A stretch of 32,029 bases of DNA from a virus: positions 1 to 32,029 of the IMG/VR virus record IMGVR_UViG_3300025120_000286; one strand, given 5' to 3'. Of this stretch, positions 3,366 through 30,123 are shown piece after piece. The stretch's first letter is position 1. Every line of letters starts with the position of its first letter. The translations under genes and the position numbers were made by a program. Under the pieces are notes generated by a model. The model did no database searches and had not been told where the DNA came from. It saw only the letters and a list, made by a program, of their open reading frames with translations.

Positions 3366-3539
3366 ATGAAAGGTGTAAAACATTACAAAAAAGACGGTAG
3401 TGAATACAAAGGTAATTCGCATAAAATGCCGAATGGTAGTTTACATACGAATAAATCACATACTAAAACAAGTGTGAAATTATTTCATTTTAAAGATTTA
3501 AGTAAAAAAGCAAAACTAAGAGCTAAAGGGAAAGCATAA
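3366..3539 (+). CDS. Small basic protein with His/Lys-rich motif, function unknown
   Basis: A 57-codon ORF that starts directly after the lysozyme stop and ends in a TAATG overlap with the next gene, so it fits the operon exactly. The protein is Lys/His/Ser-rich and opens MKGVKHYKKDGSEYKG, followed by a HKMPNGSLHTNKSHTKTS stretch and a basic helical tail. Short proteins of this style sit next to the two basic proteins that follow in several marine phages, but I know of no assigned function. It lacks membrane segments. A packaged DNA-associated or head protein is possible; this is inference. Confidence 0.65.
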   Translation: MKGVKHYKKDGSEYKGNSHKMPNGSLHTNKSHTKTSVKLFHFKDLSKKAKLRAKGKA

Positions 3540-3730
3540 TGCCAAAAAAGACACATAAAACTAAAGACGGTAGAACCGCTAAAAAAGGACTTTATTATAA
3601 TATTAATAAAAAGAAGAAGGAAGGTAAAAAACCTCGCAAAAAAGGTGCTAAAGGAGCTCCTACGGCGGCAGATTTTAAACGTTCTGCTAAAACAGCTAAA
3701 AAACCTATAAAGAAAAAGAAAAAGAAATAA
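3539..3730 (+). CDS. Lysine-rich basic phage protein, function unknown
   Basis: Sixty-three residues, of which more than a third are Lys or Arg; the C-terminus is an almost uninterrupted lysine run. The N-terminal MPKKTHKTKDGRTAKKGLYY pattern recurs in small basic proteins of many tailed phages. Both ends overlap neighbouring genes by a single TAATG base, so the three basic proteins at 3366-4029 are made as a translationally coupled set. Strong positive charge suggests binding to DNA, RNA or the negatively charged capsid interior. No fold or catalytic feature is visible. Confidence 0.7.
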   Translation: MPKKTHKTKDGRTAKKGLYYNINKKKKEGKKPRKKGAKGAPTAADFKRSAKTAKKPIKKKKKK

Positions 3731-4029
3731 TGGCAACTGAGCGTAAAGAAAAATCTATACGCCGCACCACTAAAGGTAAGGGTGCTAATTACCGTAAAAC
3801 TAAATCAGGTGCTGGGATGACAGCTAAAGGTGTAAAAGCCTATAGAAAGAAAAATCCTGGATCTAAATTAAAAACAGCGGTTACAGGTAAGGTGAAGAAG
3901 GGAAGTAAAGCAGCAAAAAGAAGAAAATCTTACTGTGCAAGATCAGCGGGACAAATGAAAAAATTTCCTAAAGCAGCTAAAAACCCTAATTCAAGATTAA
4001 GACAAGCAAGAAAAAGGTGGAAGTGTTGA
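3730..4029 (+). CDS. Conserved basic phage protein (DUF6321-like)
   Basis: A 99-residue, strongly basic protein. The central SGAGMTAKGVKAYRKKNPGS segment, the KGSKAAKRRKSYCARSAGQM segment with a conserved Cys, and a C-terminal RKRWKC ending match a widely distributed phage family of unknown function (I recall DUF6321). It has no membrane segments or signal. It is the last of three consecutive basic genes and is followed after one base by a membrane-protein gene. The two cysteines (about residue 69 and the last residue) could bind metal or form a disulphide. A DNA-condensing or capsid role is plausible but unproven. Confidence 0.72.
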   Translation: MATERKEKSIRRTTKGKGANYRKTKSGAGMTAKGVKAYRKKNPGSKLKTAVTGKVKKGSKAAKRRKSYCARSAGQMKKFPKAAKNPNSRLRQARKRWKC

Positions 4030-4339: not shown

Positions 4340-4522
4340 ATGAAAATTTTTTTAACAGAGTTTCGTGTAGGTGCTTCTATTTATGAAGGTCCTAATATCG
4401 TTGCAGAATCTTTTGAAGAGGCTGAAGAACAAGCAGAAGTTTTTAATGTAATCGTTATTGGTATTTTAGATACCGATTTTGAAATAACTGATGTAGAGAA
4501 ATGGAAACCTACTTTACATTAA
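4340..4522 (+). CDS. Small acidic protein, function unknown
   Basis: Sixty residues, acidic, predicted beta-alpha-beta: MKIFLTEFRVG strand, EGPNIVAESFEEAEEQAEVF helix, then a VIVIGIL strand. This is a compact ferredoxin-like or small phage accessory fold that I have seen as an unnamed protein in many marine phages. It overlaps the next gene by 22 bases and begins directly after the holin candidate. No function can be given. Confidence 0.6.
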   Translation: MKIFLTEFRVGASIYEGPNIVAESFEEAEEQAEVFNVIVIGILDTDFEITDVEKWKPTLH

Positions 4523-4797
4523 TAGCTGAGCTAGGTGTTCCTATTGCAGGAGCCTTAACTATGGCGTATTTTATCTTTTTAATTATGAAACAACTTATGA
4601 ATGGTTTAGTTGCAGAAATTAAAACCGTTCAAGGTATTACTAAAATGTTAATTACTAGAGCTTCTATAATGAACAACGATATTATAAGAATAGATACTAG
4701 TGTATCTTCAGCTTTAAATTTAAAACCTGATTTAGATAGAATTGCTAGAGCAGAAAATTTTGTTGAAGACGGCAAAATAGATGCTCGTAGAGATTAA
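4501..4797 (+). CDS. Membrane-anchored coiled-coil protein, first of a tandem pair
   Basis: Ninety-eight residues with one N-terminal hydrophobic segment (about 5-30, LGVPIAGALTMAYFIFLIM), followed by an amphipathic helical region. Its LIAELGVP, AYFIFLI, VAEIKTV and DIIRIDTSV elements line up with the protein encoded directly downstream, so the two genes are diverged tandem duplicates. The layout (N-terminal membrane anchor, cytoplasmic coil) resembles BhlA-type holin-like proteins, but there is no family-specific signature. It starts inside the previous gene and ends in a TAATG overlap with its paralogue. Confidence 0.62.
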   Translation: METYFTLIAELGVPIAGALTMAYFIFLIMKQLMNGLVAEIKTVQGITKMLITRASIMNNDIIRIDTSVSSALNLKPDLDRIARAENFVEDGKIDARRD

Positions 4798-5051
4798 TGG
4801 ATATAGTAAAACTAGTTTCAGAGTTTGGTTTCCCTGTGGTAATGGTGATAGGGTTGGGTTATTTTGTTTATTATGTTTGGCAAACTATAACTAAAACTAT
4901 TGACCCAGCAGTAGCTGAAATGAAAACCACTATAATAAGACTTACTGATCAATTAAGATTATTAGATCAAGACATGATAAGGCTTAAAGAAAAAGTAAAT
5001 ACTGTTTTAGAACTAAAAGAAGATGAGAAAAAGAAAGAAAACAAAAGCTGA
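4797..5051 (+). CDS. Membrane-anchored coiled-coil protein, second of a tandem pair
   Basis: Eighty-four residues: an N-terminal membrane segment at about 5-30 (FGFPVVMVIGLGYFVYYVW) and a long amphipathic helix with regular hydrophobic spacing (LTDQLRLLDQDMIRLKEKV). It ends in a Lys/Glu-rich tail. It is a paralogue of the preceding gene and resembles BhlA-like small phage membrane proteins that are common in uncultured marine phages. Its 3' end overlaps the csgF-like gene by 29 bases, so the last phage housekeeping gene and the first curli gene are physically interlocked. Lysis or envelope function is inferred. Confidence 0.62.
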   Translation: MDIVKLVSEFGFPVVMVIGLGYFVYYVWQTITKTIDPAVAEMKTTIIRLTDQLRLLDQDMIRLKEKVNTVLELKEDEKKKENKS

Positions 5052-5520
5052 CGAACAAGTAGAAAATTTGTTCTTAGTTATTATGGTTACTACAATGTTA
5101 GTTTTAGGTCTATACAGTGCTTTTATTGATGCTGACCAAATAACCCATAAATTTAAATCACCAAGTTTTAATGGTGAAGGTACTTCTAGTCATTATCTTA
5201 CAATTGAAAATCAAGAATTTAGTCGTAAATTAACAATTAAAGAAGAAATTAAAGCTTTACAAGATGAAATAGAACGAGAAAAAGAAAATAGCACATTAGC
5301 TAGGTTTATGAGAAACCTTGAATCAAGAGTCTATGCTGAACTTTCTAGACAGTTAGTAGATAACCTGTTTGGTGAAACACCTCAAAGTTCTGGTACAATA
5401 CAATTAGAAGGAAACACGATTCAATATACAAGTGATGGTGTTACATTAACATTAAAAATAACCGAGGAAGATGGAACAGTTACTGAAATTACGATACCTA
5501 TCGGTACTTTTACTTTCTAG
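5023..5520 (+). CDS. csgF: CsgF-like curli secretion accessory protein
   Basis: A 165-residue exported protein similar in layout to CsgF, which in E. coli (138 aa) plugs into the outer-membrane CsgG pore and links secretion to curlin nucleation. A hydrophobic signal or anchor spans about 16-35. Directly after it comes THKFKSPSFNGEG, which matches the FxFRNPxFGG signature at the mature CsgF N-terminus, the part that inserts into the CsgG channel. A helical region (about 70-120) and a C-terminal strand pair (GTIQLEGNTIQY, then VTLTLKITEEDGTVTEITIP) follow, as in CsgF. The very basic N-terminus (RKRKK) and longer middle helix differ from E. coli. It overlaps csgG by 50 bases, which supports the assignment. 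Confidence 0.85.
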   Translation: MRKRKKTKADEQVENLFLVIMVTTMLVLGLYSAFIDADQITHKFKSPSFNGEGTSSHYLTIENQEFSRKLTIKEEIKALQDEIEREKENSTLARFMRNLESRVYAELSRQLVDNLFGETPQSSGTIQLEGNTIQYTSDGVTLTLKITEEDGTVTEITIPIGTFTF

Positions 5521-6292
5521 TTGTTCGTTATTTCAACAGCTTGAAGATACTTACGAACAACGATTTGAAAATCTTGATGTAGTTTCTATCCAGGAGTTAC
5601 AGTCTGTTGCTTTACGTGATGTAGAAGTTCCTGAAGTTAGTCCTGTGGTTGCTGTATATCCAACAGCTTTTACTGACCAAACAGGGCAACGTAAAAGTAA
5701 TAGTGAATTTGCTTTATTCAGCACCGCAATAACCCAACAACCCAATGCATTACTAATAAGAGCATTAAAACACGCAGGAAACGGTAATTTCTTTAGAGTA
5801 GTAGAAAGAGTTGGTTTAGATAATTTAACTAAAGAAAGGCAATTAATACGTTCCGCTAGAGAACAATTTGCTAATGAAGAAGAAAAGAAAAAACAATTAG
5901 CACCTTTATTGTTTGCAGGTATTTTAATCGAGGGTGCTGTAATTTCTTATGAAGCTAATTTAGAGTCTGGCGGTACAGGTGCAAGATATTTAGGGATTGG
6001 AAATAGTATTCAGTACAGAGAAGACAACATAACAGTTAGTTTACGTATGGTCTCTGTAGCTACAGGAGAAGTTCTTTTAGAAGTATTAAGTCAAAAAACT
6101 ATATTTAGTTATGGTAAGTCGGAAGATGTTTTTAAATTTGTTGAGTTAGGCACAGAGCTTGTAGAAATAGAATTAGGTAATGCTAGAAACGAATCATCAA
6201 CAATAGCTTTAATGAAAGCAATAGAAGGTGGTGTTTTAGAAATTATAAAACAGGGCTATAAAAGAAAATTTTGGGTTTTACAAAAAGATTAA
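5471..6292 (+). CDS. csgG: CsgG-like outer-membrane curli secretion channel lipoprotein
   Basis: A 273-residue protein (E. coli CsgG is 277) of the CsgG family, which forms a nonameric outer-membrane pore for export of unfolded curlin subunits. A lipoprotein signal peptide ends in LLSSC with Cys18 as the acylated residue. Family landmarks follow in order: AVYPTAFTDQTGQ (about 61-73), FSTAITQQPNALLIRALK (83-100), ERVGLDNLTKERQLIRSARE (112-131), ILIEGAVISYEANLESGG (151-168), ARYLGIG (171-177), an NITVSLRMVSVATGEVL strand, and a C-terminal FWVLQ. The eyelet region before FSTA lacks the E. coli Tyr51 and has a one-residue insertion. The short overlap with csgF and the curlin-like gene downstream give strong context. 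Confidence 0.93.
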   Translation: MEQLLKLRYLSVLLLSSCSLFQQLEDTYEQRFENLDVVSIQELQSVALRDVEVPEVSPVVAVYPTAFTDQTGQRKSNSEFALFSTAITQQPNALLIRALKHAGNGNFFRVVERVGLDNLTKERQLIRSAREQFANEEEKKKQLAPLLFAGILIEGAVISYEANLESGGTGARYLGIGNSIQYREDNITVSLRMVSVATGEVLLEVLSQKTIFSYGKSEDVFKFVELGTELVEIELGNARNESSTIALMKAIEGGVLEIIKQGYKRKFWVLQKD

Positions 6293-6300
6293 AAAAAGTT

Positions 6301-6318
6301 ATGATGGGACGGTCATGA
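6301..6318 (+). other. Five-codon leader micro-ORF upstream of the curlin-like gene
   Basis: After an AAAAAAAGTT leader at 6291-6300 there is an ATG ATG GGA CGG TCA TGA reading frame whose stop overlaps the ATG of the curlin-like gene at 6315 (ATGA). This could couple translation of the curlin-like gene to initiation at the A-rich leader. It may equally be chance, since the ORF is only five codons and no conservation data are available. Confidence 0.3.
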
Positions 6319-7043
6319 TAAAGAAGTTTGTACTATCTTTGCTATTGTTTACGTTATTTCCATTGTTTGCAGCGGATAATGAAATATATGTAGACCAATC
6401 AGGAACAGGGGCGAATATAGACCTTGAACAATTAGGCGTATCTAATATTATAGGTGGTTTAGGTTCTTCTGCAGGAAATTTAACTGCTTTTGATTTAGAC
6501 GGCACAAGCATGACTTTAGACATAAACATGATTGGTGCTACTAATAAATTTTTAGGAGACATCACAGCGAATAGTTTTACAGGGTTATATAACTTCACAG
6601 GATCAACAAATACTTTTACAATTCAAGTAGACCCTACAAATACATACGGAGCTAATAGTTCTAATCAAAACATAGCAGTTACAGGAGCAGGAAACACGTT
6701 TACGCTTAATCAAGCAACAACAGCCTTAGCTGCAACTTTAGATTTAGATTGGATTATTCAAGGTTCTAACAACACTGTAACGTCTAATATTAATATTGAC
6801 GGTGCAACTAACTACATGGATATAGACGGTAGTGATAACACAGTTAATTACACAGGAACAGGTGTTAATGCATCAGCGGGTGGTTACTTTTATTTAGATC
6901 ATACAGGCGGACAAAGAACGTTTAACATTCAACAACTGAGTACTTTAGATAATGACTGGCTTAAAATTTTATCAGTTGGCGGTAACGCTTCTTCTACTGT
7001 CTGTGTCGTTCAAAACGATCAAGGCACAAGCACCTCTTGTTGA
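6315..7043 (+). CDS. Secreted curlin-like (CsgA/CsgB-type) repeat protein
   Basis: A 242-residue protein with a clear Sec signal peptide (MIKKF, then a hydrophobic run to about residue 19, cleavage near AADN). The mature part is Gly/Asn/Thr/Gln-rich with poorly conserved strand-turn repeats of the type found in curlins: NEIYVDQSGTGANIDLEQLG (22-41), GNTFTLNQ (126-133), NNTVTSNINIDG (152-163), DNTVNYTG (174-181) and FNIQQL (203-208). It ends with two Cys (VCVVQ and STSC). It lies immediately downstream of csgF and csgG homologues, so it is the probable export substrate. The repeats are looser than in E. coli CsgA, so a surface adhesin or a minor, nucleator-like subunit is more likely than a canonical fibre subunit. 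Its last 92 bases overlap the FecR-domain gene. Confidence 0.72.
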   Translation: MIKKFVLSLLLFTLFPLFAADNEIYVDQSGTGANIDLEQLGVSNIIGGLGSSAGNLTAFDLDGTSMTLDINMIGATNKFLGDITANSFTGLYNFTGSTNTFTIQVDPTNTYGANSSNQNIAVTGAGNTFTLNQATTALAATLDLDWIIQGSNNTVTSNINIDGATNYMDIDGSDNTVNYTGTGVNASAGGYFYLDHTGGQRTFNIQQLSTLDNDWLKILSVGGNASSTVCVVQNDQGTSTSC

Positions 7044-8070
7044 TATTGGGGATATATCTGAACTAAACGGTTCTGCACAAATAGTACGAGACAAACCCTA
7101 TACCGCTGATTTAAATTTTTCTATACAAAGTAACGACGAAGCAATTACTACAAACGGTAGAATGGCTATTACGTTTTTAGATGATTCTATTGTAAAACTA
7201 ACTGAACACTCACAACTCACCATAGACGAATATATCTACGACCCCGACCCTTCTAAATCTAAAATGGCTCTTACTTTCGGATTAGGTACGGCAAGGTTTA
7301 TTACAGGAAATTTAAATCGTATAGATAAACAAAACATTAAATTAAAAACTCCTACAGCTAATATTGCAATTCGTGGAACTGATTTTACAGCGACAGTAGA
7401 TGAATTAGGTCGTAGTTTAATCATTCTTTTACCAGATGCTTTAGGTTTATCTAGTGGAGAAATAGAAGTAGTTACCGCAACAGGAACAGTTTTATTAAAT
7501 AAACCGTATCAAGCAACAACTGTTTCGGTTTTTGAATCAGCCCCCAGTAAACCCGTTATCTTAGATTTAACTTTAGACGTTATTGATAATATGTTAATCG
7601 TTACGCCCCCTAAAGAAAAAGAAAAAATACAAGAAGAAAACATACAAACCAAAAGAGAAAACATATTAGATTTTAATGATTTAGATATTGACTATTTAGC
7701 TGAAGACTATTTAGCTGAGGATGAGCTTGAGTTTACCGAATTAGATATCAATTTTTTAGATGTAAATTTTTTAGAAGATTTATTAAATGTTTTAGACGCT
7801 TTAGCTATAGCCAAAGATGAAGATGTATTAGCTCAAGCTACTAGTACACAAGTAACAGGAACTTTATTAGGTAAAGACCCAGACACACAAATAACAACAT
7901 TAATAACAGGAAATGTTGTTAGTTTAAGAAGAACTGTAAATGAAAGTGTTAGAGTTGATTTAAACGGTAGTGAAGCTTATACAGTAATTTTGATACAAGA
8001 CGGAGTATCTAATATAATCAAAGTTAATGGAGGAAGTAATAGCGTAATTACTATTACTCAAAGCGATTAA
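6952..8070 (+). CDS. Secreted FecR-domain protein with curlin-like C-terminal tail
   Basis: A 372-residue protein with an N-terminal signal peptide (hydrophobic 9-20, cleavage likely near AQA at 25-27). A FecR domain covers about 40-195. Its hallmarks are NGRMAITFLDDSIVKLTEHS (68-87), the IDEYIYDP strand, and KTPTANIAIRGTDFTATV (132-149), the TPxAxxGIRGT signature with Ala-Ile in place of Gly-Ile. A highly acidic, Asp/Leu-rich linker (237-285, including DYLAEDYLAED) follows. The last 40 residues carry repeats of curlin character (EAYTVILIQDGVSN, then SNSVITITQ). FecR domains act in the periplasm as signal transducers or binding modules; stand-alone FecR proteins often sit beside CHASE2 cyclases, as here. 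The start lies inside the curlin-like gene; a later ATG would lose the signal peptide. Confidence 0.85.
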   Translation: MTGLKFYQLAVTLLLLSVSFKTIKAQAPLVDIGDISELNGSAQIVRDKPYTADLNFSIQSNDEAITTNGRMAITFLDDSIVKLTEHSQLTIDEYIYDPDPSKSKMALTFGLGTARFITGNLNRIDKQNIKLKTPTANIAIRGTDFTATVDELGRSLIILLPDALGLSSGEIEVVTATGTVLLNKPYQATTVSVFESAPSKPVILDLTLDVIDNMLIVTPPKEKEKIQEENIQTKRENILDFNDLDIDYLAEDYLAEDELEFTELDINFLDVNFLEDLLNVLDALAIAKDEDVLAQATSTQVTGTLLGKDPDTQITTLITGNVVSLRRTVNESVRVDLNGSEAYTVILIQDGVSNIIKVNGGSNSVITITQSD

Positions 8071-9824
8071 TGAAAAAGTTAATACTACCTATATTATTTT
8101 TACTTGGATTACCTTTAGTGTTTCAAGTCGCACCTGTTGAAATATTAAAATTAAAAACATTTGATGCTTTTGTAACTACACCAGAGCCTTCTGGTAATTT
8201 TGTTATTTTAAATATTACTGAAGAAGATGTAGATGCGGCAGGCGGTTATCCGTTTCCTAGAGAGGAACTAGCTAAGATACATTTAGACTTATTGCGTAAA
8301 GGTGCTTTAGGCGTTGGTTGGGTATTAGCTTTTCCACACGAAGATAGGTTTGGTGGTGATCATTATTTTAAAGAAGCATTATCGTATGCTCCTTCGGTTA
8401 TCGCTGTTTTTGAAAACGATAATGGTATATACCCTAAAACAGTAGGTACTGTTATTATGGGTGAGGGTAACGGTGGTTATATGTCTAAAGGTACCGTACA
8501 AAATATTTCAGGATTAAACGCAGCAGAAGGAGTAGCTTCCGCTCCCGTAGATATAGATAACTTAGTTAGACGGATACCACTTCTATATAAGACCCCAGAG
8601 GGGTGGTTAGCGGCTTACGGTACACAAGTATTAAAAGCCCTAACAGGGGCTAAAACTTACGTTATAAAAACTAATACGAATGGGTTAGAAGAAATAAGAG
8701 TAAAAGGTTTACCGCCAGTAAAAGTAGATTCTTTAGGGCGTAAGTGGGTTAGTTGGGTAGACACTCCTACAACAACATTAAAAGAAATGAATGTAAAAAA
8801 TAAATTCGTTTTTGTTGGAGTAACTGCTAAAGGCGTTATGCCACAGTTAGCTACACCAACAGGGTTACTTGAGCCACACAAGATACAAGCAGCATTAGCA
8901 GAATCAATATTGGTAGAAAATAGTCCATATATCCCCGACTATAGTATAGCCGTTGAAGTTTTAGTGTTTGTTATATCCCTGCTTTTAGTTTGGGTTGCGT
9001 TAAACAACTTAGGCATTACTGCAGGAGTCCTTTGTTTTGGTGTAGTTATGTCTAGCACCGCTATCGGAGGCTATTATGCCATACAACAAGGATTATTAAT
9101 AGATGCAACTTGGTCTTTAATAAGTCAATTTATAACAGGTACAGTAGCCTTTTATTTAAGATTTAGAGAACAATTTAAATTACGATTACAAATTAAAAAA
9201 CAGTTTGAACATTATCTAGACCCTAGACAAGTAAAACAATTACAAAAGAATCCAGATTTATTAAAACTAGGTGGCGAAAAGAAAACAGCTACGTTTTTAT
9301 TTACCGATGTTAGAGGGTTTACCGCTTTATCTGAATCAGTAACTCCTGAAGAAGTGACTTATATAATGAATAAAGCATTAACCGCACAACAAGCAGCAGT
9401 ACAAAAACACGGTGGTATGGTAGATAAATACATAGGTGATGCGATGATGGCTATATTTAACGCACCTTTAGATTTATTAGATCACCCGAACATAGCGGTG
9501 AGTTGTGCTCAAGATATTTGGCAAAATATGTCAGACCTTAATGTAGAACTCCAAGCGGAAGGCTTGCCCCCAATAGCCATAGGAATAGGCATAAACACAG
9601 GAGAAGCAGTGATCGGTAATATGGGTTCTTCATCTAGATTTGATTATACCGCTATCGGTGACGCAGTAAATACCGCGGCTAGATTAGAATCAGCAACGAA
9701 AGAAGCAGGAGCAGATATACTTATTGGGGAAAATACTAAAAATTTATGTAAACATAGCTTAAAAGAACTAACACCGATGAAAGTAAAAGGCAAAGAAAAA
9801 CCTTTAAAAATATACACACTTTGA
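8070..9824 (+). CDS. CHASE2-domain class III adenylate/guanylate cyclase (membrane receptor)
   Basis: A 584-residue receptor cyclase. An N-terminal membrane helix (4-22) is followed by a periplasmic CHASE2 domain (about 25-285, with FVILNITEEDVDAAGGYPF and VSWV, KFVFVG motifs) and three transmembrane helices (about 292-310, 316-336, 345-364). A linker (HYLDPRQVKQL) leads to the cyclase domain (about 405-584). Catalytic residues are all visible: metal-binding Asp413 (FTDVRGFTAL) and Asp457 (KYIGDAMMAIF), substrate Lys453, base-selecting Thr527 (FDYTAIGD), and transition-state Asn534 and Arg538 (AVNTAARLE). Lys plus Thr favours ATP over GTP. It is coupled to the FecR-domain gene by TAATG. This is an unusual gene for a lytic-type phage; ligand and effector are unknown. 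Confidence 0.93.
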   Translation: MKKLILPILFLLGLPLVFQVAPVEILKLKTFDAFVTTPEPSGNFVILNITEEDVDAAGGYPFPREELAKIHLDLLRKGALGVGWVLAFPHEDRFGGDHYFKEALSYAPSVIAVFENDNGIYPKTVGTVIMGEGNGGYMSKGTVQNISGLNAAEGVASAPVDIDNLVRRIPLLYKTPEGWLAAYGTQVLKALTGAKTYVIKTNTNGLEEIRVKGLPPVKVDSLGRKWVSWVDTPTTTLKEMNVKNKFVFVGVTAKGVMPQLATPTGLLEPHKIQAALAESILVENSPYIPDYSIAVEVLVFVISLLLVWVALNNLGITAGVLCFGVVMSSTAIGGYYAIQQGLLIDATWSLISQFITGTVAFYLRFREQFKLRLQIKKQFEHYLDPRQVKQLQKNPDLLKLGGEKKTATFLFTDVRGFTALSESVTPEEVTYIMNKALTAQQAAVQKHGGMVDKYIGDAMMAIFNAPLDLLDHPNIAVSCAQDIWQNMSDLNVELQAEGLPPIAIGIGINTGEAVIGNMGSSSRFDYTAIGDAVNTAARLESATKEAGADILIGENTKNLCKHSLKELTPMKVKGKEKPLKIYTL

Positions 9825-23247: not shown

Positions 23248-24771
23248 ATGTCGTTAGCAGAGCGATTTGCTACACGCTATGCAGGGCTACGCCAAGCATA
23301 TGGAACTTTCACCGCTAGTAATGACTTACGAGAGGATGGCAAGGCAAATGGTAAAAACGTTACCATATCTAAAGAGTTATCAGATACTGATCTCTTAAAG
23401 TTATGGCAAGACCATTTGTCGGGTCAGCAAAGTGTTGGTATTGTTTCTATAGACGAAAACAATTGTTGCGTCTGGGGAGCGATAGATGTTGATGAGTATC
23501 AGCTAGACTTAAAAGGTTTAGCTAAGAAAATAGCTAAACACGAGTTGCCCCTTGTCGTCTGTCGTAGTAAAAGTGGCGGAGCACACATATATTTGTTTTT
23601 AGACGAGCCTGTATTAGCGTCCCTAATGCAAAGAAAATTGAGACAGTTGGCAGCTTCTATTGGTTTTGGACAAGCGGAGATATTCCCTAAACAAACCAAG
23701 CTACTGTTAGAACGTGGAGATAGAGGAAGCACTTTAAATATGCCTTACTTCGGAGGAGAGAACTCGACTAGGTATGCGTATGGTAAAGAAGGACAAGCAC
23801 TTAGTCCAGAAGAATTTTTAGACTATGCTGAAGAATTAAAGTTAAAGCCTAGTGCTTTAGAAACCTTAGAGGCAAGTCCTCTAACCGAATCTATAGATTG
23901 GCTAGACCAGTCACCCCCTTGTTTACAGCATTTAGTTGTACAGGGTTTTCCGAAAGGAACTAGAAACTCAGGCTTGTTTAATCTTGGTGTGTTTTTAAGA
24001 AAGAAATACTCTGACGATTGGGAAAAAAGATTAGAAGAAGTAAATATGCAGTATATGCACCCGCCGTTGGGAGCACAAGAAGTATTAACGATTGCTAAAC
24101 AAGTACAAAGAAAAGATTATTTTTATAGGTGTAATGACCAACCCATCGCTAGTCATTGTAACAGTCCTTTATGTAGAACTAGAAAACATGGGATTGGGGC
24201 TAATGGTGGGACACCTTTATTTAGTAACCTTACAAAACAGGACAGTGATCCACCTATTTGGTTCTTAGATGTCGAAGGCGGTAGGCTAGAGCTAGAAACT
24301 GATGACTTATTAAATCAAAACAGATTCCAACGTAAATGTATGGATGCTCTAAATAAAATACCACCGAAGGTAAAAGAAAACGTTTGGAATCAAATTATAC
24401 AACAGCTATTAGATACTATTACTATAGTAGAAGTACCTAAAGAAAGTTCGACAGAAGGTCACTTTATGGAGTTATTAGAATCGTTCTGTACAGAAAGACC
24501 TGCTAGAGAGCGAGACGAGTTATTGTTACATAAGCCTTGGACAGATAAAGGTAGAACTTATTTTAGATTACTAGACTTAATGGATTATTTACATAGAAAT
24601 AACTTTAAAGAATACCAACGAAATAAACTTACGTCTAAATTAAAACAATTACATGGTGAGCCGTATTTCTTTAATATTAAAGGCAAAGGTGTAAACGTTT
24701 GGTTTATTAATGAGTTTATAGCTCAGAATGAAGAACACGATCTGCCTGATTTTAATGACAATTTATTATGA
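23248..24771 (+). CDS. Archaeo-eukaryotic-type primase (AEP / PrimPol-like)
   Basis: A 507-residue replication primase of the AEP superfamily, similar to TOTE/PrimPol-type primases. The catalytic metal pair is AIDVDEY (Asp80, Asp82). It is followed by SKSGGAHIYLF with His113 (nucleotide binding) and by NMPYFGG at 164-170. A zinc-binding cluster lies at 295-314 (CNDQPIASHCNSPLCRTRKH), a knuckle typical of the C-terminal part of AEP primases. A charged C-terminal region (about 370-507) has no helicase motifs, so a separate helicase is required; an SF1 and an SNF2-type helicase are both encoded nearby. The good ribosome-binding site (CGGAG) fixes the start. Confidence 0.85.
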   Translation: MSLAERFATRYAGLRQAYGTFTASNDLREDGKANGKNVTISKELSDTDLLKLWQDHLSGQQSVGIVSIDENNCCVWGAIDVDEYQLDLKGLAKKIAKHELPLVVCRSKSGGAHIYLFLDEPVLASLMQRKLRQLAASIGFGQAEIFPKQTKLLLERGDRGSTLNMPYFGGENSTRYAYGKEGQALSPEEFLDYAEELKLKPSALETLEASPLTESIDWLDQSPPCLQHLVVQGFPKGTRNSGLFNLGVFLRKKYSDDWEKRLEEVNMQYMHPPLGAQEVLTIAKQVQRKDYFYRCNDQPIASHCNSPLCRTRKHGIGANGGTPLFSNLTKQDSDPPIWFLDVEGGRLELETDDLLNQNRFQRKCMDALNKIPPKVKENVWNQIIQQLLDTITIVEVPKESSTEGHFMELLESFCTERPARERDELLLHKPWTDKGRTYFRLLDLMDYLHRNNFKEYQRNKLTSKLKQLHGEPYFFNIKGKGVNVWFINEFIAQNEEHDLPDFNDNLL

Positions 24772-25349
24772 TCAAGTTTTATAAAAATAAATTTGTAGGT
24801 TTTAATCCGTTAATAACTGATTGGGATAAACCCGTAAATAGAGTATTTAATGGTAAAAAAATTAAGGGTAGACCAACTAAAGCTTTTGGTACCGCTGATT
24901 TTGAATACGCAGGTAGAGTTTATAAACCCGTACCGTGGACTCAACCGATGATGTATATAAAAGGTAATTTAGAAACATTTATAAAAAGAGAACTTAACAA
25001 AGAAATTAATTTTAATTTTTGTCTATGTGGTTATTATGGTGTGGATGGAAGGGGCATACCACACCATTCTGATACGGTACCTGCATTAGACGATTTAGTT
25101 GTTTCGATGTCTTTTGGTTCGCCTAGAATATTCCAATGGAAAGAATATACTAAGTCTATTAAAGAACATACCGCAACCAGCATAGTTAATACAAAACATA
25201 TAAGTAAAAAAGGTACAACTGATTATTTAATGGAAAACGGAGACGTGTTTATCTTTGACGGTCACTCACAGATGAAAGCTACCCACGCAGTACCTGATGT
25301 AGTCGGCGGTAGTGAACGAATTAATTTAACTTTTAGGACGGGAATATGA
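24768..25349 (+). CDS. AlkB-like 2OG-Fe(II) dioxygenase
   Basis: A 193-residue dioxygenase of the AlkB type, which removes alkyl groups from nucleic acid bases. Iron ligands are PHHSD (His100, Asp102) and His173 (THAVP). 2OG-binding arginines are in SERINLTFR (Arg184 and Arg190). The FGTADFEYAGRVYKPVPW segment resembles the AlkB nucleotide-recognition lid, and MENGDVFIFDGHSQ is the usual strand before the distal His. It could repair methylated phage DNA, or oxidise or remodel modified bases; the cassette at 27053-30451 makes the second possible. It overlaps the primase by ATGA and the zinc-ribbon gene by ATGA. Confidence 0.88.
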   Translation: MIKFYKNKFVGFNPLITDWDKPVNRVFNGKKIKGRPTKAFGTADFEYAGRVYKPVPWTQPMMYIKGNLETFIKRELNKEINFNFCLCGYYGVDGRGIPHHSDTVPALDDLVVSMSFGSPRIFQWKEYTKSIKEHTATSIVNTKHISKKGTTDYLMENGDVFIFDGHSQMKATHAVPDVVGGSERINLTFRTGI

Positions 25350-27052: not shown

Positions 27053-27904
27053 ATGTCATCAATTAGAAAGAAATTAACTGTTAATGAAAATGACAGTAAA
27101 AATACTCGAATGGATCTAGCTTCGGCAGGTGTATTGGGTAACTGGAGACCCGATGAGTTAGCTCATATGAGTCGATTCGATAAAATCGCTTCGCTTTGTA
27201 TAGAAGAAGCTAAACTGTTAGGTAGACCATTAGATACTTTAGAAGTAGGCTGTGGTGAGTGTTGGGCTTTACGTTGTTTATATAAGGCTTATGTCGTTAA
27301 GAAATCTGATATTATTAGTTCTTATTACGGCTACGATATAGACCCTGCTTGTCAATTAGAGAATAAGTTTTGGTCTAACGCAGGTGGAAAACTAGAAGAA
27401 TCTACTTGGTTTAAAAACTTTAATGGAGAAATAAGAATACAAGACCTAACGGTAAACCCTATCTTTGATTTACCTGATGAAAGTATAGACTTTTTCTGGT
27501 CAACCGAAGTTATTGAACATATGGGTAGAGAGTTTATTCCCGCATGGTTAGATGATGTTGCTCGTGTTATGCGACCTGATTCTATAGCGTATGTGTCTAC
27601 TCCTAACCACGACGGTTCTAATGATAAGTTACCCGAAGATCATGTATATGAGTGGGGTTTTCAAGAACTTAAAGAAGAACTAGAAAGAAATTTTCATATT
27701 GAAGCAGTAACGGGTACGTTTATTCAAATGCCTAACTTAAAGAAAGCTAGGTTTGATGGCTCTCGAGACGTGGGTTTAGAGTGGACAGACCAACAAATGA
27801 TTATGTTAACAGAACGTTTTGGTAAACAGTTTTTAAGAATGGCAGCAGCAACGGTGTATCCTGAACATTCTAATAACTGTGCTTGGAGATTACGTAAAAA
27901 ATAA
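27053..27904 (+). CDS. Class I SAM-dependent methyltransferase
   Basis: A 283-residue Rossmann-fold methyltransferase (Methyltransf_11/25-like). SAM-binding motif I is LEVGCGECWA (63-72), motif II YYGYDIDP (91-98), the acidic loop SIDFFWSTEVIEHM (144-157), and the post-motif strand VMRPDSIAYVSTPNH (172-186). No target-recognition domain or DNA-methylase DPPY/PCQ motif is visible, so a DNA-sequence-specific methylase is unlikely. It is coupled by TAATG to the hmdU-kinase-family gene, which makes modified-base chemistry or protein/cofactor methylation in that pathway a reasonable guess. The substrate is unknown. Confidence 0.85.
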   Translation: MSSIRKKLTVNENDSKNTRMDLASAGVLGNWRPDELAHMSRFDKIASLCIEEAKLLGRPLDTLEVGCGECWALRCLYKAYVVKKSDIISSYYGYDIDPACQLENKFWSNAGGKLEESTWFKNFNGEIRIQDLTVNPIFDLPDESIDFFWSTEVIEHMGREFIPAWLDDVARVMRPDSIAYVSTPNHDGSNDKLPEDHVYEWGFQELKEELERNFHIEAVTGTFIQMPNLKKARFDGSRDVGLEWTDQQMIMLTERFGKQFLRMAAATVYPEHSNNCAWRLRKK

Positions 27905-28830
27905 TGATTCAATTTATCCCAGAAGAACTTGATAGATATTTCTATTGGCAAGAGGAACGTGAAATGATTCGGCTTAGAAAAGAAGAATCAGAAACTCCTT
28001 CGCCTTGGACTTCTGACCCTATACTACAACAGTTTAAATTCTGTCAAGTGTATAGGGAGGATGATAGAACTACTCGTTGGTTTAGAGAACATATAAGGGA
28101 ACCGTTAAAAAACAAACCAGAAGTCTTAATGGCTACGGTTATCTTTCGTTGGTTTAATCTTATAGAAACGGGTAGAACATTAATAGATAATGATCTATTA
28201 GTTAATTGGGATAGAGAGAAAGCTATAGAAGAAATAACTAAACAACCTAAATGGATCACGGGTTCATACATTATAAAAACACCTAATCGTATGAATAAAG
28301 TTACAGGAGTAGCCGAGTGTGTTTCACATATGTGGAGTGATCGAAATTATTTAGTAGATAAGTTAGAAAAGAACACAGCTGATGGAGAGTGTTCTTTACA
28401 AAGTTGTTGGGAAACTTTACGTGACTACCCTTATATGGGTCCATTTATGGCATATGAAGTGGTTACTGATCTTAGGCATACTTATTTATTAGACGAAGCA
28501 AATGATATTCTCACGTGGGCTAATGCTGGTCCTGGAGCAATGCGAGGACTTAATAGATTAACAGGTAGGGATTTAAAGTTTTGTAAACGTAGTCACTCTT
28601 GGGGCGATGAAATGGAACAGTTATTAGCAATAGCCATAGATAGAAATTCATTCGTTACTAAACGTAATGATTTGAAATATGAGTTAAGAGAGATAGAAGG
28701 TGGTCTTTGTGAGTTCGATAAGTACTCTAGGATTGTTAAAAACGAAGGTAGAACACGTTCTATATATAAACAAAATGATCTTCCTAAAGTAGAAGATTTG
28801 ATAAAAGGAGTAAGTAAGTATGACATTTAG
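27904..28830 (+). CDS. 5-hmdU DNA kinase helical-domain / aGPT-pyrophosphorylase family protein
   Basis: A 308-residue helical protein. FCQVYREDDRTTRWF (47-61), FRWFNLIETG (81-90), WITGSYIIKTP (117-127), GPFMAYEVVTDLR (179-191), DILTWANAGPGAMRGLNRL (201-219) and IEGGLCEFDKYSR (264-276) recall the family described by Iyer and Aravind for phage thymine hypermodification: alpha-glutamyl/putrescinyl-thymine pyrophosphorylase or the helical domain of 5-hydroxymethyl-dU DNA kinase. These proteins act on 5-hydroxymethyluracil in DNA so that an amine or amino acid can be attached. A P-loop kinase domain is not visible, so it is the stand-alone version. A TS-family gene downstream could supply 5-hmdUMP. 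Confidence 0.75.
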   Translation: MIQFIPEELDRYFYWQEEREMIRLRKEESETPSPWTSDPILQQFKFCQVYREDDRTTRWFREHIREPLKNKPEVLMATVIFRWFNLIETGRTLIDNDLLVNWDREKAIEEITKQPKWITGSYIIKTPNRMNKVTGVAECVSHMWSDRNYLVDKLEKNTADGECSLQSCWETLRDYPYMGPFMAYEVVTDLRHTYLLDEANDILTWANAGPGAMRGLNRLTGRDLKFCKRSHSWGDEMEQLLAIAIDRNSFVTKRNDLKYELREIEGGLCEFDKYSRIVKNEGRTRSIYKQNDLPKVEDLIKGVSKYDI

Positions 28831-29041
28831 TAGTAATGAAGCTATAGAGCTTCTAGAAAAGTGGGGAGATTCTGTTGATATATTCTATACGCAGTTCTTA
28901 GAAGTATCTTTTTTCTTAAAAGTGTCTGCTTCAGAAAACATGGCAATAGCTTTTGTAAAAAAGAAACTACCTATGTTGAGTGAGCAAGAGATAGCTTATC
29001 TAATAACCGAAGTAGTATTGGGATATCAGGAGACTTTATGA
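28820..29041 (+). CDS. Small acidic helical protein, function unknown
   Basis: A 73-residue, mostly helical protein that overlaps the previous gene by 11 bases and the TS-family gene by four (ATGA). An AAGGAG precedes it at 28805-28810. It has no membrane segment or known motif. Because it is locked between two putative base-modification genes it may belong to that pathway, but that is position only. Confidence 0.6.
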   Translation: MTFSSNEAIELLEKWGDSVDIFYTQFLEVSFFLKVSASENMAIAFVKKKLPMLSEQEIAYLITEVVLGYQETL

Positions 29042-30123
29042 AAGTAATAACAGCAAGAAATGTAAACGATGCTTTTAAACTAGGGGTAGATTTCTTTTTA
29101 GATAAAGATAACTACAGGCAACAAGATAGTAGAAACGGTACAACACTAGAAGCTAATGAACCTGTAACTACGGTTTATCGGAAACCTACTGAACGAGTAT
29201 TGTTTTCTCAAAAACGTGATGCTAATCCGTTCTTTCATTTTATAGAAGGGTTATGGATGTTGCATGGACGTAACGACTTAAGACCTTTAACCTTTTTTGT
29301 AGACTCTATGCGAAACTTTTCTGATGACAATAAAACTCTATGGGGAGCCTACGGTTGGCGTTGGAGAGATTATTTTGATAAAGATCAATTAGATATTATT
29401 ATCGCTATGTTAAAACGTAATCCAGACGATAGACGAGCCGTTTTACAGATGTGGGACGTAAGAAAAGATTTAGATAAAGACGGTAAAGACGTGCCTTGTA
29501 ACACGAATATATATTTTAAAATCAGAGATAATAAATTAAATATGACTGTATGTAATCGTTCTAATGATATGATTTGGGGAGCTTACGGTGCTAACGCAGT
29601 ACATATGTCTATGTTACAAGAATATATGGCTACGTTAATTGGTGTAGAAGTTGGTGTGTATACTCAAATTAGTGATAGTTTTCACGTTTACGAAAACGAC
29701 GTTTGGGAACGTTGTAAACAATTAGGCGTTATTGATATTCATAGTTGGCGTTCTACTAAAAACGAATACGAACATATCGAACAAAAAGAACTTATACCTT
29801 TAATAACTCATTCTAAAACTTTCCATTGGGAGCTAAATTTATTTTTTGAGGCGTTTAACGACGTTATAACTACAGGAGAAAAGTTTTCAACTAAAGAATA
29901 TACAGGACCAATAAAAACTTTTAAAAATTCGTCTATACGAGACATAGCAATACCTATGGTTAATGCTTATATGTTTCATAAACATAGACGTTACGAGGAT
30001 TCTTATGCCGAGATTAATAAAATTAAAGCATATGATTGGATGACGGCATGTTTCGATTGGGTCCGAAAAAGAGACGTGTCGTATACTTTAAACAATACGG
30101 ACAAAGGAGAAACTCATGGATAA
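29038..30123 (+). CDS. Thymidylate synthase-family enzyme, probable dUMP hydroxymethylase or TS
   Basis: A 361-residue enzyme of the ThyA fold (E. coli ThyA is 264), with C-terminal additions. The catalytic Cys154 is in DVPCNTNIYF; the usual His after Cys is replaced by Asn. The phosphate/dUMP loop is CNRSNDMIWGAYGANAVH (172-189); Asn186 corresponds to the Asn that reads a uracil ring, where dCMP hydroxymethylases have Asp. The conserved HxY is HVY at 217-219, and RRAVLQMWD (132-140) carries the phosphate-binding arginine region. Together with the neighbouring hmdU-kinase family protein, dUMP hydroxymethylation is as likely as normal thymidylate synthesis. No dihydrofolate reductase is seen nearby. 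Confidence 0.85.
   Translation: MKVITARNVNDAFKLGVDFFLDKDNYRQQDSRNGTTLEANEPVTTVYRKPTERVLFSQKRDANPFFHFIEGLWMLHGRNDLRPLTFFVDSMRNFSDDNKTLWGAYGWRWRDYFDKDQLDIIIAMLKRNPDDRRAVLQMWDVRKDLDKDGKDVPCNTNIYFKIRDNKLNMTVCNRSNDMIWGAYGANAVHMSMLQEYMATLIGVEVGVYTQISDSFHVYENDVWERCKQLGVIDIHSWRSTKNEYEHIEQKELIPLITHSKTFHWELNLFFEAFNDVITTGEKFSTKEYTGPIKTFKNSSIRDIAIPMVNAYMFHKHRRYEDSYAEINKIKAYDWMTACFDWVRKRDVSYTLNNTDKGETHG

Follow-up and report, generated by a model that had tools for sequence, protein, structure and literature searches.

We analysed a 32,029-base virus record (IMG/VR IMGVR_UViG_3300025120_000286), here called the window in its whole length and treated as a fragment of a phage genome. Positions 5023-9824 code for CsgF, CsgG, a curlin-like protein, a FecR-domain protein and a CHASE2 class III cyclase, in that order. 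A sequence-only reading of the window had placed five genes here, packed so tightly that neighbors overlap or lie at most 22 bases apart; all five open reading frames (ORFs) were found in those places, and the junctions agree. Gene starts were taken as the first start codon of each ORF. The features of the block are as follows (lengths in amino acids, aa; overlaps in nucleotides, nt).

5023..5520, + strand: CsgF, 165 aa (Pfam CsgF 4.7e-17, phrog_35372 2.1e-45)
5471..6292, + strand: CsgG outer-membrane pore lipoprotein, 273 aa (Pfam CsgG 1e-45), signal peptide encoded inside csgF
6315..7043, + strand: curlin-like secreted protein, predicted beta-solenoid, 242 aa, with homology to Caulobacteraceae and myophage curlins
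6952..8070, + strand: FecR-domain protein, signal peptide on reading, 372 aa (Pfam FecR, PF04773, 3.7e-9); first 92 nt overlap the curlin gene
7861..8067, + strand: FecR C-terminal tail, possibly curlin-like, residues 304-372, ending NGGSNSVITITQSD
8070..9824, + strand: CHASE2 class III adenylate cyclase; CHASE2 at about 8115-8981 (Pfam 2.2e-22), a membrane region on reading, cyclase domain at about 9282-9818 (Guanylate_cyc 7.7e-20)

The Pfam matches to CsgF, CsgG, FecR, CHASE2 and Guanylate_cyc all exceed the curated cut-offs, and the profile matches bear out the proposed identity of CsgF and CsgG. The gene upstream of the block, h2, overlaps csgF by 29 nt. In the window, csgF and csgG overlap by 50 nt, csgG and the curlin gene are separated by 22 nt, the curlin gene and fecR overlap by 92 nt, and fecR and the cyclase gene share 1 nt. 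On reading, csgG and fecR carry good signal sequences from their first start codons (a ...LLLSSC lipobox in csgG; MTGLKFYQLAVTLLLLSVSFKTIKAQA in fecR). In the csgF/csgG and curlin/fecR overlaps, the downstream signal peptide is written within the end of the upstream gene.

The window was compared with 80 viral loci from IMG/VR (L001-L080), the best 80 of 259 relatives from a CsgG scan. The order of one or two h genes, csgF, csgG, curlin gene, fecR and cyclase gene, h(h)-F-G-A-R-C, was constant in the window and the 80 loci and was broken only at locus ends. All five genes were present in 64 of the 81 loci, window included, and in 48/48 where the locus length allows. The csgF/csgG overlap was exactly 50 nt in 66/71 loci, and the curlin/fecR overlap exactly 92 nt in 67/75. 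Because the loci are the best 80 of 259 relatives, the conserved order is conservation among near kin; L001, whose CsgG is 100% identical to that of the window, perhaps belongs to the same population. The isolates HTVC008M and Melnitz also carry the block, and the order is thus kept among viral contigs and isolates alike, a check that the sequence-only reading had proposed. A host fragment or a chimeric assembly, against which it had argued from the junctions, was ruled out because the same order recurs in the 80 IMG/VR loci.

All five block genes are under purifying selection. The ratio of non-synonymous to synonymous polymorphism (pN/pS), determined for each block gene against 4 relatives (4 pairs), was 0.12-0.17 for CsgG, 0.16-0.21 for the curlin-like protein, 0.17-0.21 for FecR, 0.22-0.35 for CsgF and 0.34-0.37 for the cyclase. 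Constraint is strongest on CsgG and weakest on the cyclase. Two neighboring phage genes, compared in one pair each, gave 0.22 and 0.68.

The block is an already described, well-conserved phage module. Wittmers et al. (2022) reported the arrangement CsgF-CsgG-CsgA/B-FecR-adenylate cyclase in nine HTVC023P-type podoviruses and in myoviruses (PMC9599517), in line with the remark in the earlier reading that csgG/csgF homologues have been reported in uncultured marine phages. That reading could not confirm that the FecR-cyclase pair had been described with them; the pair is in that paper and is annotated in the Melnitz record. The same source found phage curli genes at all 65 ocean stations examined, and module genes expressed in ocean metatranscriptomes.

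F44, P47 and F49 of CsgF, which form an N-terminal F-x-x-P-x-F motif, do not vary across six sequences that span E. coli CsgF and the phages. It is this N-terminal region of CsgF that docks in CsgG. The lipobox residue Cys18 of CsgG is unchanged in the CsgG proteins of E. coli, Caulobacteraceae, HTVC008M and Melnitz. Window CsgG is 51% identical to the CsgG of a Caulobacteraceae contig (L088) over 211 aa and 51% identical to that of HTVC008M over 75% of the query; identity with E. coli is 40% for CsgG and 20% for CsgF. An E. coli CsgG query matched 83 proteins, window CsgG included, and a CsgF profile run against the Protein Data Bank returned no CsgF chain at E<=1. Among database records, the unannotated 1.5-kb "Salmonella phage" entry OR851715.1 in GenBank matches CsgG at 44%; it is possibly host DNA deposited as phage.

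For the curlin-like protein, a profile was built from 15 podovirus-type copies. It matched the four Caulobacteraceae curlins, with E values between 4.9e-13 and 3.5e-15, and the first curlin of each myophage (HTVC008M, 5.4e-21; Melnitz, 2.3e-16). Of the second myophage curlins, that of Melnitz was matched weakly (1.6e-4) and that of HTVC008M was not among the matches. Judged by these profile matches, homology to the Caulobacteraceae and the first myophage curlins is clear. Pfam Curlin_rpt was over the cut-off in both curlins of Melnitz; of the L088 pair only the first curlin passed, and of the HTVC008M pair only the second. An E. coli CsgB query matched one HTVC008M protein (1.1e-4) and did not match the window protein. 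The AlphaFold2 model of the window protein (predicted local distance difference test, pLDDT, 84.3; predicted template modeling score, pTM, 0.81) is all beta after the signal peptide. Its best solved-structure matches in VIA-align are beta-helix proteins (Z up to 16.5); the list names no curlin chain, which we take as evidence neither way, and Foldseek returned no match at E<=0.001. In HTVC008M, the second curlin has a PA14 domain (PF07691, 2.7e-6; L081 9405-10730) ahead of its curlin repeats, a domain that could bind surface sugar.

The FecR protein has full-length homologues in Caulobacteraceae (39%) and HTVC008M (38%). Its PF04773 domain is accompanied by an acidic LD-rich stretch and then the C-terminal tail, in which Gln370 is nearly invariant in 19 sequences including Caulobacteraceae and is lost in L090. 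Aligned with curlins in hhalign, the tail scored 23.9, which 0/60 column shuffles reached (maximum 17.6), at a probability of only 11.5%; this is a hint that the tail is curlin-like. A classical iron regulator of the FecI-FecR-FecA type is not favored, as no sigma factor was found among ten window proteins scanned, the FecR neighbors on both sides included.

The pairing of FecR with CHASE2 extends beyond curli modules. In 70 cellular FecR loci that hold no phage-type or curli module (CsgF or CsgG in 0/70), CHASE2 lay within 5 kb of FecR in 25 and within 200 bp in 9; the sample is uneven because 9 of the 25 are SAR11 loci. CHASE2 was found in 15 of 147 SAR11-family genomes, two of which (G006 and G432) hold a phage-type module. 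Outside such modules, FecR was near CHASE2 in 10 of 13 SAR11-family CHASE2 loci (L296-L308; e.g. L121 6443-8503 and 9803-10378), in genomes that gave no CsgG match. In the nine SAR11 FecR loci the CHASE2 protein has no cyclase catalytic residues; one of these proteins, on reading, looks like it has a SpoIIE-type phosphatase output. In Burkholderia, an operon of FecR and a CHASE2-kinase regulates biofilm (PMC5192318). Because the SAR11 pairs occur without cyclase residues and the Burkholderia operon has a kinase, the comparison supports FecR and CHASE2 as a putative sensing pair with exchangeable outputs.

The catalytic residues of the cyclase are strongly conserved. D413, K453 and D457 were present in 63/63 copies from the window and L001-L080, and D531, N534 and R538 in 62/63, the remaining copy being gapped; these cyclases diverge to 62% identity. 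We take these positions to be the two metal aspartates, the adenine-specifying lysine and aspartate and the transition-state asparagine and arginine of class III cyclases. The adenine-type pair K453 and D531 is found in every viral copy that reaches it, and the five top-ranking solved relatives are all named as adenylate cyclases. By its residues, the window protein is a class III adenylate cyclase.

Whether a host could read a cyclic AMP (cAMP) signal was considered in 147 SAR11-family genomes of unstated completeness, with 115 Alphaproteobacteria as control. The cyclic-nucleotide-binding domain PF00027 occurred in 9/147 SAR11-family genomes vs 88/115 Alphaproteobacteria, a control in which genome size is a confounder (among listed class genomes of <=1.5 Mb, 11 have PF00027 and 11 lack it; 7 non-matching genomes are unlisted). 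The nine genomes held 10 matches, 7 of them in frames of 372-1002 aa, two of these in G006. A class III cyclase over the cut-off was found in 2/147 genomes, G006 and G432, in each within a phage-type module, and CsgG was found in the same two. On reading, the G432 contig looks like phage; reading of the G006 contig covered the module only. In a further genome, G451, a cyclase match stayed below the cut-off (20.0 vs 21.9 bits), and class I cyclases were found in 0/147. PF00027 was also found in none of HTVC008M, Melnitz and the 32-kb window, which is part of its genome. The linked FecR-cyclase pair of the sequence-only reading is upheld, with intact catalytic residues in the cyclase. A connection of its cAMP with host physiology loses weight, since most SAR11-family genomes showed no PF00027 and none an over-cut-off cyclase outside phage-type modules. 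The cAMP route to curli expression, as in PMC9599517, has no known receptor in most SAR11-family genomes surveyed.

Phage modules resemble alphaproteobacterial ones, and FecR and the cyclase have been said to be absent from bacterial curli operons (PMC9599517). A scan of bacterial genomes with a FecR query, from which 79 loci were kept, gave a different picture. Seven loci on six contigs (L084-L087, L090-L092) were phage-type modules, with h genes on each contig. Two others, L088 and L089, lie on contigs of Caulobacteraceae metagenome-assembled genomes (MAGs) and encode CsgF-CsgG-CsgA-CsgA-FecR-CHASE2/cyclase without h genes. FecR and the cyclase are therefore found in a cellular curli operon as well as in the phage ones. 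By reading, L088, the one of the two whose flanks were read, is flanked by glycosyltransferases, a TonB-type receptor and a peptidase, and its operon appears chromosomal. The two loci may not be independent because both MAGs bear the same sample label. Such curli operons with FecR and a cyclase are rare in cells: at E<=1e-40 only 2/199 Caulobacteraceae genomes matched, those of L088 and L089, and a full-length FecR match was found in 1/385 class genomes, with 18 further genomes matching the FecR domain part only. In a cyclase tree of 31 rows from one search, the module cyclases of Caulobacteraceae and phages formed one group apart from 16 other FecR-linked cyclases (support 100/100). The published nesting of the podovirus module within myovirus modules was not resolved; the tree leaves the Caulobacteraceae, the myovirus and the podovirus-plus-L216 groups as a three-way split.

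The block is flanked 5' by two small membrane-protein genes and 3' by a tail-fibre-like gene (phrog_12032). The two upstream genes are as follows.

4501..4797, + strand: h1, 98 aa, small membrane protein whose tail reads as coiled-coil-like (phrog_18771)
4797..5051, + strand: h2, paralogue of h1, 84 aa (phrog_18771 7.4e-27; phrog_4898 "holin" 0.0034); last 29 nt overlap csgF

Genes of the h family lie directly upstream of csgF in the podoviruses, HTVC008M and Melnitz. From its position, h1 is probably the "histidine kinase" gene of PMC9599517. However, h1 had no Pfam match at E<=1, and no kinase domain was among the 17 weak Pfam matches of 10 h-family members at that threshold; phrog_4898 was matched by 3 of the 10 (best 1.4e-5), h1 not among them. 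The histidine-kinase reading was therefore rejected, and the sequence matches identify the upstream genes as small, putatively holin-like membrane proteins. The h genes are tied to the curli module. Among 50,697 phage records, h1 was found in six, the same six as FecR (HTVC008M twice and four Melnitz strains). In 79 IMG/VR h loci (L217-L295; L039 was left out, and several share contigs with L001-L080), CsgF and CsgG were present in 60 of the 65 with at least 1.5 kb downstream and absent from five (L235, L242, L246, L248, L249). In L248 (5995-6806), h1 and h2 are kept without the curli block and a tail-protein homologue directly follows h2. On L216, a phage-like contig in a SAR11-family bin, two IscA/IscU-like iron-sulfur scaffold genes were read just outside the h genes (8510-9539). 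The h genes were not found in the Caulobacteraceae loci L088 and L089.

The kinship of the window phage was traced through its partial DNA polymerase, which is nearest to the uncultivated phage 023Pt_psg01 (53%), followed by HTVC023P (48%), DSL-LC04 (47%) and HTVC027P (46%). Its tail protein is nearest to DSL-LC04 (40%), with HTVC023P at 36% and Roseobacter phages and HTVC023P within 33-36%. Compared as DNA, the first 25 kb of the window matched a single phage record, HTVC027P, over 240 bases at 78%. On its DNA polymerase the window phage is called HTVC023P-like, and a SAR11 host is likely.

Elsewhere in the window, an HMUDK_hel family protein (PF18723, 8.4e-42) is encoded near a thymidylate synthase (PF00303) at 27904-28830 and 29038-30123, which suggests hypermodified DNA. 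Some HTVC023P-type clades have a thymidylate synthase and a pyrophosphorylase gene for hypermodification (PMC9599517). Two short, very lysine-rich proteins are encoded at 3539-4029, the second of which was matched in 20/83 searched sources, window included, and two 2OG-Fe(II) oxygenase-family genes lie at 3-266 and 24768-25349. Rfam and tRNA scans of the window gave no match.

The reading that we prefer, with a probability of about 0.5, is that the block is a laterally acquired curli operon, serving as an infection-time surface-fibre exporter with its own FecR-CHASE2 envelope sensor that makes cAMP. The operon would be of alphaproteobacterial type and would be expressed during infection. CsgG would form an outer-membrane pore in which CsgF docks, and the curlin-like beta-solenoid protein would be exported to form a fibre or coat on the infected cell. 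Periplasmic FecR and the inner-membrane CHASE2 cyclase would work together as ligand and receptor, sensing the condition of the envelope or fibre system and making cAMP. The benefit would most likely be an altered infected-cell surface, in the form of superinfection exclusion or aggregation. In favor of this reading are the profile matches, the constant gene order, the purifying selection, the conserved catalytic residues and CsgF motif, the Caulobacteraceae operon with its module-type cyclases, the neighborhood of FecR and CHASE2 in curli-free loci, the Burkholderia operon and the metatranscriptome expression. These two, together with uptake, are hypotheses also in print (PMC9599517, PMC7029224), and sibling capture, uptake and lysis timing have been put forward for the myovirus cases (PMC7029224, PMC9004378).

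Several observations weigh against this reading. The host assignment is blurred: DSL-LC04, recorded from Gammaproteobacteria, is about as close as HTVC023P in DNA polymerase (47% vs 48%), and it, not HTVC023P, is the nearest relative of the tail protein. The window curlin-like protein is below the Pfam Curlin_rpt cut-off (E 1.5, residues 22-41), with no other Pfam match over the cut-off, and an E. coli CsgA query found nothing in these phages, window included. No phage CsgF was matched below 1e-3 by an E. coli CsgF query (best 0.02; single-sequence search). No CsgE, CsgC or CsgD was found at E<=10 with E. coli queries against the ORFs of the window and L001-L082, a single-sequence search that found its CsgG control and could miss divergent homologues. 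The FecR structure model is poor (pLDDT 55, tail included), too poor for a structure search, and 45/70 of the cellular FecR loci, some of them cut short, had no CHASE2 within 5 kb. Melnitz and L091 cyclases have Ser at Asn534. Finally, the Melnitz report describes infected cultures without clumping in cytograms or transmission electron microscopy, and makes a case for a possible divergence of CsgF and CsgG (PMC9004378); the idea derived from Melnitz that CsgF has parted from CsgG is weakened because the F-x-x-P-x-F motif and the lipobox Cys are kept. On the whole, the sequence-only interpretation stands for phage-borne curli-export genes with a FecR-cyclase pair in conserved order, is weakened for a cAMP link to the host, and fails for a "complete" system: CsgE, CsgC and CsgD were not found, the curlin repeats are sub-threshold, and the second curlin gene of the myoviruses is missing.

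An alternative that we consider unlikely, and that fares best after the preferred reading, is that CsgG and CsgF form an ungated channel, for large nutrients or cofactors or for lysis timing with holin-like partners, the curlin-like protein being secondary. No CsgE gate was found with the E. coli query, CsgG is under the strongest constraint within the block (pN/pS 0.12-0.17), and the weakly holin-like h genes accompany the module in 60/65 IMG/VR h loci and in all 6 phage records with h. In print, a part in lysis timing has been suggested for Melnitz, and one in uptake for pelagimyophages (PMC9004378, PMC7029224). However, the CsgF N-terminal motif is kept, and the curlin-like protein does not look secondary because it is about as constrained as FecR and is present wherever the locus length allows.

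It is improbable that FecR and the cyclase came along as passengers with the ancestral operon and have no current signaling role. In most SAR11-family genomes neither a known cAMP receptor nor a native cyclase over the cut-off was seen, which would fit such a passenger, as would the low constraint on the cyclase and the Ser for Asn534 in the Melnitz and L091 enzymes; its catalytic residues, however, are kept in 62-63 of 63 copies despite divergence to 62% identity, its pN/pS is still about 0.36, and both Melnitz and HTVC008M retain the gene. A long shot is that the module is a self-contained, surface-sensing timer of lysis or occupancy. Here the curlin-tailed FecR would report to CHASE2, and the cAMP, which would be private to the phage because the host group shows no cyclase of its own nor, usually, a cAMP-binding domain, would act on a phage-encoded or unrecognised receptor, possibly via the h proteins. 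Least probable is a Pycsar-like superinfection or abort switch, in which envelope disturbance by a second phage would raise a cyclic nucleotide that stops the cell: PADLOC models of Pycsar cyclases match the cyclase domain (best 7.8e-29) and the sensor should face the periplasm by homology, but adenine-type K453 and D531 are in all viral copies reaching them, a common class III fold could account for the match, and no cyclic-nucleotide-binding effector was found in the window (a fragment), HTVC008M or Melnitz (0/3).

With FecR and the cyclase present in a cellular curli operon, the question of what purpose curli serve in phages is sharpened. An active-looking cyclase is carried by phages of a host group in which little or no native cAMP system was seen; this implies an unknown SAR11 cAMP receptor, a receptor brought by the phage, or another host. 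Most of the SAR11-type genomes examined show no known reader of cAMP, which reopens the question of the purpose of the signal.

The literature searched (titles, abstracts and term counts) gave no paper that mentions CHASE2 for the phage module or remarks that a cAMP receptor is missing. Within it, the additions made here are the CHASE2 assignment and its pairing with FecR, a curli operon in cells that includes FecR and the cyclase, the revised identity of the "histidine kinase" genes and the lack of a known cAMP receptor in most SAR11-family genomes surveyed. Among known systems, PADLOC returned cyclase matches only for the window, and Pycsar differs in that the window cyclase has adenine-type residues and no PF00027 effector is seen in the 32-kb window, the rest of the genome being unseen. 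The Burkholderia BiofilmReg operon is alike in that a secreted FecR-domain protein adjoins a CHASE2 sensor protein; it differs in its LysM-FecR protein, histidine kinase output and response regulator and, as described, in having no curli genes (PMC5192318). In E. coli csgDEFG/csgBAC, neither FecR nor a cyclase is among the annotated genes of the stretch, and its csgE, csgC and csgD homologues were not found in the phages. HTVC008M (KC465899) and Melnitz (MZ577097) share the arrangement hh-CsgF-CsgG-curlin-FecR-...-CHASE2 cyclase, but have a second curlin gene between FecR and the cyclase and lack the 50-nt csgF/csgG overlap. The type VIII secretion system (T8SS) module of pelagiphages has the same five-gene order as the window with one or two small genes in front (PMC9599517); the main text of that paper names CHASE2 0 times and calls the upstream genes histidine kinases, whereas the window genes in that position have no kinase domain. 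The Caulobacteraceae operon differs from the phage block in its two curlin genes before FecR, in the h genes not found there and in its glycosyltransferase and TonB-receptor neighbors (L088), but has the same five protein families in the same order and a similar FecR tail, ...NGGG..I.VTQ.

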